Below, in pieces: positions 44,781 through 63,128 of a stretch of 64,000 nt of DNA. Under the pieces are notes generated by a model. The model searched no databases. It was not told the origin of the DNA and saw only the letters and a list, made by a program, of their open reading frames with translations. Numbering within the stretch: the stretch's first letter is position 1; each line of letters begins with the position of its first letter. The stretch comes from Salminus brasiliensis. Taxonomy: Eukaryota; Chordata; Actinopteri; Characiformes; Bryconidae. Where the stretch lies: assembly GCF_030463535.1 (NCBI RefSeq), contig NC_132894.1, positions 10,314,933 to 10,378,932 of the forward strand. The letters run 5' to 3'. The position numbers were made by a program, and so were the translations under genes.

Positions 44781-47700
44781 ATGGCTCTGAGCTACAGCCT
44801 ATTTTTCTTAAACCTTCTGGTAAGTCCTGCTACTCATACTTTCCTGCTTTTTGTGGGTAAAGAAAGAACTGGATAAATTATTTACAATGTTTTTAAATAC
44901 TAGTATTCTACTGAAATTATGTCATGTTAAGCGTATGGTTGCATATGCTTGTATTTTGGTATTTTGACATTTGTATTTAGAAAATAACAAAAAACAAATT
45001 AACTAGAAAATCATCTACACTACAAGCCAATAGGCAGCTTGAAAACCTCCCAGTGGACTGCTGCTTCTTTTAACAGTGGCTAGATCAGTCGTTCATGTCA
45101 AGAAGGGCCAGCGTATACTTTTGAATTGGTCCGGTTCCTGCTTTGCCTTTGTTACTGTGTCATGAACACTTGTGTTGGGCACGAGGTGCACCTTATGTGG
45201 TAAATGTGGCTTTGTTTCCAGTATTCAGTCAGAGACAGAACCTTGAGGTTTGTATACAAGGATGTTTGAGATAGATCTTTAACTGCCAATTTTCTCTTCT
45301 TTCCTGGTAATGTCTCATGTATGGGGTTTTCACATTGTAAAAATGTAAACATAGATATGTAAATTAAATGTATGTGGTAGGACATTGCCATTGTTTCAAC
45401 TTTTCATTAGGTTTCCATCCAGATCCTGGAAGTAGAAGGCTGGCATGACTTGGATAATACTGAATATGACTGCTGGCCGATTACAGACCCAAACGATTAC
45501 AACATGATCAGCTGTGGTGGTAAGTGGCCTGTAATGAATGCTATATTATGGATAAAAAAGAGTGATACAATGAAAAATCAATAAATAGAAATGAAGTGTT
45601 GTCATTTCAGACAAGTGTGTCTGATTAATTCGGATATGCTGTATATTTTTTATTATTATGAGTAGAGTGTAACATCTGAAAGACTTTTTTTGTCTTTGGA
45701 ATGTATTTTCCCTCATTTATGAGTGTTTTTGAGTACCTACTAAATCTATCCCATAACATTTTCCCCACATCTCTTAATATGCTTTATTATCAGCAATTTT
45801 CTAAACAATGAATTACAGACAAGCTGGTCATTGCTGGATTTATGAACTCCTAATAGTCAAAAAAAGTTACTAGATAGCTAACTACACAATGTTAGCTGGC
45901 TGGATGGCTTACACAGTGGCAGTCCGGGAAATTTTGGCAGTCCTTCAGCTATGTAGACATCTGATAGACGTGTGCCAATAAGAACACAACCAAATATGTC
46001 TGCCATGACCCACAGCCACAGAAACTGCATCACTGTAATTTTTTTTCTTGTGATGACCTCTGCATTGCGAATCAGTAGTTTGAATGGGTGTGGCCCCTGG
46101 TAGACTAAGGATTCTTTGTTTAGCTAAGACACATTTGACTATGTAAAGTTTCGTCTAGATGTGGGGAAAAATAAAGGAAGATAAGTCAGGACCAGAATTT
46201 ACTCACTCACACACACATGCTAAAGTAAAGAATGTTGCTTCACTGAAACGAAGACTGAAATAGAAGTGAAAGTAGCATCGCAAATATAAACCTAAGTAAA
46301 AGTAAAAAAAAAGTATGAGGTTAAAAAACTGATCAAAAGTGTGAAGAACAGCAAAACAAAACCAAGAGAGACTTCTCATAGTTCTCACAGATTCTCCCTA
46401 GGAATTACTTAAATATAAAAAAATATGTCTCAAACATGAATAAATACAATTCTTGTTATGGCTCCGTATCGCAAAGCAATCCCATTACCATTTTATTCTT
46501 CTTCATATTATTATTGTTTTTTTGCCAGATTTTCGCATATTGCATATCTCGTCCCACAGTTTTTGAGATATCAACACCTTTTCCAACTCTGAGTGTTCGG
46601 TCTGATTTGGGCTTGTAAACATATTTTTGATCAGACACATGGTGTCCATGTAGCAAAGGACTTTTGTGGAATTTCCTTACATTGGAATGAATGGGGTACG
46701 GAAGTTTTGGCACACTTATCTCACAATGATAAAAATGCACTAGTATCACCCAATCAGCCACATGGGTACCACAGCAAGCACTTAACAACCATCTGGGATA
46801 CCATAGGAACTGCCCTGCAACCACCTAGCAACACCCAAGCAACCACTAAAACAACACTATGGTGAACTTGTAGCACTGTAGAAGCCATCTAACACATCTT
46901 ATCACTTTGCAACTTAACAACACCATAGCAACCAGCTAGCAACATCATAGAAACCACCTGGAATACCACCAGCAAGCACATAGCCACTACCTAGCAAAAA
47001 GTTTGCATCCCTTCTGTGTTTCCTTCAGGAAATGCAGTTTTCTAGTTTGAAAATATCCATCAAGATATTGTACTTGAGTAAATAAAACTAATTATTGTGC
47101 ACCTTTTCACACACACAAACACACACACTCATATAAAATGACTATTTGGCTATTTTTACAGGGTTAGAGATGGCCTGGGTGCATCGTCCTCCAGAGAAAG
47201 TCACAGATGGGGAGGAGTTTAATGTGACCTATTCTGTCACAGCCTCAGACTCCTTTTATGAATATGCAGTCAGGAACAGGATTTTCCAGTTCAGGTGAGT
47301 AGTCTTTCTCCAGCTAGGACAAAGTGCTTAAAAAGCAAAAGTACAGTGAGCGATCTGATTTCACAGCATTCTGATTTTAAGGCACTGTGAGCCTTTATAT
47401 CATATTACTGAACAAATTCTGATGATATTACTGACAAGCTATAAATGAGGTGAGAGTGACTCCCTTTGGAGATAAATACTAAACTCTGATGGTAATCTGC
47501 CCTCCGGGGTATCTTTAGAACTTCAATTCCCTTTATCAAAATGTTCACCATCGGACGGTAACAAAGGCATGCTGTAATTTCATATGAGGTATGTATCACT
47601 GAAAGCTCATTGTCGAAGCTCAGTGAGAATTCTAAGGTTTTAAATGCCACAAAACAGTTACCAAGGTCTCAGAAGGTAATTAGCTTGAAGGGACAATGAG

Positions 47701-63128: not shown

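Follow-up and report, generated by a model that had tools for sequence, protein, structure and literature searches.

The window analysed here is a 64,000-nucleotide stretch of the Salminus brasiliensis genome (assembly of 1.07 Gb in 103 contigs; window C17:10314933-10378932). Within it, the forward strand carries a gene of 23 exons running from an ATG at 44781 to a stop codon at 63128, whose preferred splice (donors 50526 in exon 5 and 51287 in exon 6) encodes a protein of 841 amino acids (aa) with no internal stops. This agrees with a preliminary description of the locus, which had proposed a gene for about 841 aa at 44781-63128. From N to C terminus, the predicted protein consists of a signal peptide, an ectodomain with 14 cysteines, one membrane helix, a pseudokinase, an S-helix, and a guanylate cyclase domain. 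We read it as probably (about 0.7) a working single-pass receptor guanylate cyclase whose lineage is separate from GC-A to GC-G; judged by its sequence, it is most likely an orphan receptor cyclase on a lineage of its own. A second gene copy of its intracellular half, on contig C14 of the same genome, is new. The exons of the gene are as follows.

Exon 1, 44781..44819 (+): start codon and core of the signal peptide, aa 1-13 (ATG, GT donor, hydropathy 1.82 over aa 1-19)
Exon 2, 45411..45519 (+): signal peptide end and first part of the ectodomain, aa 14-49, Cys 34 and 48
Exon 3, 47162..47294 (+): ectodomain ([26 protein letters not shown]...), sequon N70
Exon 4, 48782..48905 (+): ectodomain, Cys 103, 108, 120, 121, and 130, sequon N95
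Exon 5, 50422..50526 (+): ectodomain, Cys 141 (CGPW block); donor 10.7 vs. 8.7 at 50461
Exon 6, 51185..51287 (+): ectodomain ([31 protein letters not shown]); codon usage +8.0 vs. -8.4; alternative (815-aa) donor at 51274
Exon 7, 51379..51524 (+): six-Cys motif next to the membrane (Cys 206-227), then the membrane helix at ~aa 235-255 (hydropathy up to 2.37)
Exon 8, 51829..51901 (+): juxtamembrane; codon score negative, yet best frame
Exon 9, 52964..53108 (+): Ser/Thr-rich segment ahead of the pseudokinase (splice, codon usage)
Exon 10, 53185..53271 (+): pseudokinase, VAVK (K334) (PF07714, 144.8 bits)
Exon 11, 53589..53732 (+): pseudokinase (Pfam; present in the C14 paralog)
Exon 12, 54610..54731 (+): pseudokinase, HGRLHSRNC replacing the HRD motif (Pfam, motif)
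Exon 13, 54848..54992 (+): pseudokinase, DYG (Pfam, motif)
Exon 14, 56515..56563 (+): pseudokinase (Pfam; present in the C14 paralog)
Exon 15, 56652..56759 (+): pseudokinase (Pfam; present in the C14 paralog)
Exon 16, 57241..57360 (+): pseudokinase end (Pfam; present in the C14 paralog)
Exon 17, 57554..57647 (+): S-helix (dimerisation coil) bearing the ERT signature ([19 protein letters not shown]) (HNOBA tail, 27.2 bits)
Exon 18, 58985..59072 (+): cyclase domain start (PF00211, 225.8 bits)
Exon 19, 59639..59778 (+): cyclase, D646 (FSDIVGFT), K684, E686, and D690 (KVETIGDA) (motif)
Exon 20, 59878..60030 (+): cyclase (Pfam, splice)
Exon 21, 60944..61042 (+): cyclase, C758 (PRYCLFGD), N765 and R769 (NTASRM) (motif)
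Exon 22, 62233..62324 (+): cyclase (Pfam, splice)
Exon 23, 63021..63128 (+): cyclase domain end, C terminus, and stop codon (Pfam, splice)

All 22 introns are of the GT..AG type, both in this form and in an alternative splice (donors 50461 in exon 5 and 51274 in exon 6) that encodes 815 aa and is identical from exon 7 onward. Codon usage was scored with a model trained on 5398 codons from the remaining exons and other cyclase loci, with exons 5 and 6 excluded. Exon 6 scored +8.0 in the 841-aa frame and -8.4 in the 815-aa frame, a difference of 16 bits. The used frame was best in 22 of the 23 exons, with a near tie in exon 4 (5.04 vs. 5.06); outside exons 5 and 6 this result overlaps the training set and is not independent. 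A simple donor matrix favored the 841-aa donor in exon 5 (10.7 vs. 8.7) and leaned slightly the same way in exon 6 (5.29 vs. 5.06). Because codon usage and donor scores favor donors 50526 and 51287, we prefer the 841-aa splice as the predicted gene model; the 815-aa splice was set aside as a gene model on exon 6 codon usage and the donor scores. As a control, the 23 intervals were slid to 460 other places, and each placement contained at least 30 stops (mean 48).

The intracellular half, searched against Pfam in its 815-aa form, matched a cyclase domain (PF00211, 225.8 bits), a kinase domain (PF07714, 144.8 bits), and the tail of the HNOBA coil (27.2 bits). The pseudokinase keeps VAVK; HGRLHSRNC and DYG stand where active kinases have HRD and DFG, and the HRD aspartate is missing. 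Cyclase residues D646, K684, E686, D690, C758, N765, and R769, whose catalytic roles we take to be the customary ones, all lie in their usual motifs (at 644, 684, and 748). The cyclase and pseudokinase had been described as standard, with catalysis complete, and on domain scores and motifs this appears to be right. The ERT signature of the S-helix is known in receptor cyclases, according to the available part of PMC1592074. The alignment with human NPR1 begins in the pseudokinase and extends almost to the C terminus (472 bits); human GC-C aligns with 341 bits. The signal peptide (aa 1-19) and the single membrane helix (~aa 235-255) were assigned by hydropathy only, with a shallow peak at 165 (1.62) assigned to the ectodomain. 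The protein thus has the broad hallmarks of a membrane receptor guanylate cyclase: the cyclase residues, a kinase homology domain, an S-helix, and a signal peptide with one helix.

The ectodomain is small, ~213 aa past the signal peptide, and residues 1-232 contain exactly 14 cysteines (34, 48, 103, 108, 120, 121, 130, 141, 206, 211, 217, 220, 224, and 227), in line with the compact 14-Cys region reported before; the blocks quoted at that time, [18 protein letters not shown] and CGPW, occur in the sequence. There are two sequons, N70 and N95. No match was found in Pfam or among PDB chains at E ≤ 10, a setting at which the HMMER filters still discard most matches above E ~0.1. A pattern search of prokaryote genome contigs returned six matches, none of them a relative. 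Two ferredoxins matched the 26-residue membrane-proximal Cys motif (E 2.3 and 3.4) and three PDB chains matched the ectodomain of the 815-aa form (E 0.95-1.6); we regard both sets as chance.

The ectodomain had also been called unlike that of natriuretic peptide receptors, and neither Pfam nor a genome scan for the ANF domain (PF01094) detected such a domain in it. The scan was of limited sensitivity: 101 of 271 candidates were scored, with 108 matches listed, and it was not exhaustive. None of those 108 matches fell on C17 or in the vicinity of the C14 copy. ANF exons were found beside, or up to ~90 kb upstream of, seven of the 11 other presumed receptor cyclase loci (L016, L017, L018, L020, L023-L028, and L030), and none were listed near L016, L017, L027, or L028. 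Because these four presumed receptor loci show no ANF exon, the scan must miss some loci. An ectodomain extended by further 5' exons with a periplasmic-binding-like fold was seen neither in the scan nor in the eight forward-strand open reading frames (ORFs) between the upstream receptor gene and exon 1: none of the eight, all of them at least 75 aa long, matched a Pfam family over its curated cut-off. Separately, the scan revealed a dense array of several dozen ANF_receptor exons at C13:32.46-33.06 Mb, which are presumably V2R-type receptors.

The second copy (L019; C14:36278505-36283700), in which exons 11-23 were found, is the best match to the window gene among the 18 loci compared, with identity at 126 of 212 positions in the kinase and 142 of 182 in the cyclase. 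Its exon flanks are compatible with the splice points of the window gene, with one GC donor. Over the codons passing an identity filter, 302 of 403 residues are identical, with a synonymous divergence (dS) of 1.8, near saturation, and a nonsynonymous divergence (dN) of 0.18, a value that the filter lowers. The resulting dN/dS of 0.10 (0.16 in the kinase, 0.06 in the coil and cyclase) indicates purifying selection on the intracellular half, as estimated from the two sequences. Exons 1-10 of the copy were not found in the 19 kb upstream of an assembly gap that precedes exon 11, nor genome-wide. The copy adjoins TMEM215, a gene that lies on human 9p; the two cyclase genes could be old duplicates, which we offer as a lead only. 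Elsewhere on C14, an NLR gene has FISNA, a domain specific to fish.

We compared the pair with other cyclases in two trees. The first combined the window gene and 18 other loci of this fish with human NPR1 and GC-C; the second kept 19 of these 21 rows, dropping the adenylyl-type loci L031 and L032, and was rooted on soluble-type loci, with six of the 19 rows filling under half of the columns. Both trees paired the window gene with its copy at 100/100, on a branch of 0.68-0.72, and kept the two out of the clades containing NPR1, GC-C, and four retinal/olfactory-like loci. Support for the NPR clade was 82/96 and 84/96. In approximately unbiased (AU) tests, forcing the pair together with the retinal-like loci (p 0.032) or with GC-C (p 0.033) was weakly rejected. 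Introns were read in 14 other cyclase loci (L017 was left out): 12 of them, soluble-type loci among them, clearly have an intron between VYKV and ETIGD; L033 probably has it, and L026 was unreadable there. In the pair this intron is absent, and breaks fall instead between TVYF and SDIV and between IGDA and YMVV, an independent hint, at the level of gene structure, that the pair may stand apart.

Each known type shares part of this design. NPR1 (GC-A) has an alignable pseudokinase, S-helix, and cyclase, with HGxLxSxNC and DYG motifs, but where it has an ANF ligand domain the window protein has none detected and carries its short 14-Cys ectodomain instead; the NPR-type fish loci (L020, L024, L028, and L030) have cyclase-domain intron sites unlike those of the pair. 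GC-C has the same intracellular layout, but the human protein falls in its own 100/100 clade with L016 and L017. The retinal/olfactory cyclases (GC-E, GC-F, and GC-D type) also share the layout, but L018, L023, L025, and L026, assigned to this class by inference rather than by comparison with a named retinal sequence, form their own 100/100 clade, and ANF exons lie beside all four. Plain orthology to a named mammalian receptor cyclase was not seen in the comparison, which covered human NPR1 and GC-C together with the cyclase loci found in this genome. Invertebrate NIT-domain cyclases resemble the window protein in being membrane cyclases with a non-ANF sensor, but in the available part of PMC7400543 their sensor is flanked by two membrane helices, whereas the window protein has one helix and a pseudokinase. 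The same text says that NIT cyclases were lost in vertebrates, and a genome search for the NIT domain gave no match at E ≤ 10.

Two further observations concern other cyclase loci. An odd cyclase on C6 near 37.73 Mb (L022:4366-5553, minus strand) has one exon in which, by eye, two hydrophobic helices surround ~250 aa, followed by a coil and then by cyclase exons, with no kinase match in 10 kb; its layout resembles that of invertebrate NIT cyclases, and no NIT domain was detected in it. L031 and L032 (C29 near 3.05 and 3.08 Mb) are long intronless cyclase frames of 479 and 656 aa; considered as intronless receptor cyclases, they were read as ADCY9-like adenylyl cyclase exons instead.

Upstream of the cyclase gene, at 4575-37234 of the window, lie a CLCC1-like gene (PF05934), a mucolipin-like gene (PF21381), and an LPAR3-like gene for a rhodopsin-type G-protein-coupled receptor (GPCR). 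Downstream, beyond the window, come an SSX2IP-like gene (ADIP, PF11559) and then vitellogenin (PF01347). Beyond the Pfam family, these gene names are our assumption. On human 1p22, SSX2IP adjoins LPAR3 with no cyclase known between them, which would fit a loss in mammals. PMC10015161 reports that the vitellogenin region and SSX2IP are in conserved synteny among jawed vertebrates. Between the mucolipin and GPCR genes, the minus strand (23170-24036) holds a 289-aa frame for a Tc1/mariner transposase of the Sleeping Beauty type.

Zebrafish may have an unnamed predicted gene of this kind; the locus name we tried appears in no paper among the matches listed. Mammals have seven membrane cyclases, GC-A to GC-G, by the available text of PMC6170504, and that of PMC10061024 likewise counts seven characterized subtypes, while the portion of PMC12611267 at hand recognizes six receptor cyclase clades (guanylin, ANP, retinal, eclosion hormone, Gyc76C, and Gyc32E). 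Further animal cyclases are treated in PMC1435932, PMC3863949, PMC6787079, and PMC7674705. The accessible portions of these seven papers make no mention of the layout seen here, and among the matches listed in the open-access literature, themselves available in part, we found no description of this gene or layout.

For the window receptor we infer expression, dimerisation, signaling, a ligand, a fold, and a separate ancestry. Two receptor subunits would pair; an extracellular ligand or state would alter the disulfide-rich 14-Cys ectodomain; the effect would be relayed via the membrane helix and pseudokinase to the S-helix coil; and the two cyclase domains would come into register and make cyclic GMP (cGMP) from GTP. 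Because the ectodomain is compact and disulfide-rich, our guess is that the ligand is a peptide or small protein. A fuller proposal, which we hold tentatively and at slightly less than even odds, is that this receptor class predates the vertebrate genome duplications, has its own non-ANF disulfide-rich ligand-binding ectodomain, was kept in fish, and disappeared from the LPAR3-SSX2IP interval in mammals.

Several points weigh against the reading of a working receptor from a separate lineage. The first tree places the pair, at 87/86, with L022 and with three soluble-type loci (L021, L029, and L033), and in the second its branch starts from an open fork. The AU tests, whose groups were defined only once the first tree was known, do not reject the pair with NPR (p 0.057) or with NPR and L028 (p 0.092). 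No ectodomain is visible for the C14 copy, which has a 5000-N gap directly before its exon 11, and a genome-wide search with aa 14-355 at E ≤ 5 found the window gene alone; a diverged ANF domain could escape detection, and the filter effect on dN counts on this side too. The earlier proposal, of a receptor class that may be old, kept in fish, and lost in mammals, is partly supported: the trees and introns set the pair apart from NPR-, GC-C-, and retinal-type cyclases, with a clade with NPR not rejected. Those same AU values, and the fact that NPR1 is the nearest named protein, would suit a fast-evolving branch of the natriuretic receptors in which a short Cys-rich ectodomain replaced the ANF one and no separate old class exists. 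We consider this unlikely but a real contender: the pair lies outside NPR in both trees, and its cyclase-domain break sites, common to both copies, differ from those of L020, L024, L028, and L030. It is rather unlikely that the protein is no ligand receptor at all, its ectodomain serving only to stabilize or target it while the cyclase is controlled intracellularly, as retinal cyclases are: the AU test weakly separates the pair from the retinal-like loci, and the ectodomain is compact and Cys-rich with two sequons.

The ectodomain might also have been misread, through the 815-aa splice (exon 6 in a Cys-rich frame), production of both forms, or further 5' exons. The GT..AG introns of the 815-aa form would allow this. 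A crude beta-moment test also leans that way: the moment of the 815-aa exon 6 frame was reached by 0.004 of 2000 shuffles, compared with 0.375 for the preferred exon 5-6 stretch. With that value and 0.54 for exon 3, a beta-strand rhythm seen by eye in exons 3, 5, and 6 of the 841-aa form is unsupported. In codon usage, the short exon 6 extension specific to the 841-aa form has a negative score (-2.0); the core of exon 5, which both splices share, scores +2.2 in the used frame and +5.8 in another. We nevertheless judge a misread ectodomain improbable, given the 16 bits by which exon 6 favors the 841-aa form, its better exon 5 donor and signal-peptide-like start, and the upstream ORFs without Pfam matches. 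That the gene is decaying or an assembly artefact is very improbable indeed; the gap at the paralog is the one feature that would suit it, and against it are the absence of internal stops, the 22 consistent introns, and the dN/dS.

The small ectodomain is unlike that of any receptor of this kind that we found, and the protein may answer to a signal nobody has identified. If the separate lineage is true, this would be an eighth kind of vertebrate cyclase, and a whole cGMP signal and its ligand would be absent from current physiology. It would also mean that the pseudokinase-cyclase engine can be driven by an unrelated sensor, and the receptor would offer a direct test of how far activation relies on an ANF fold.
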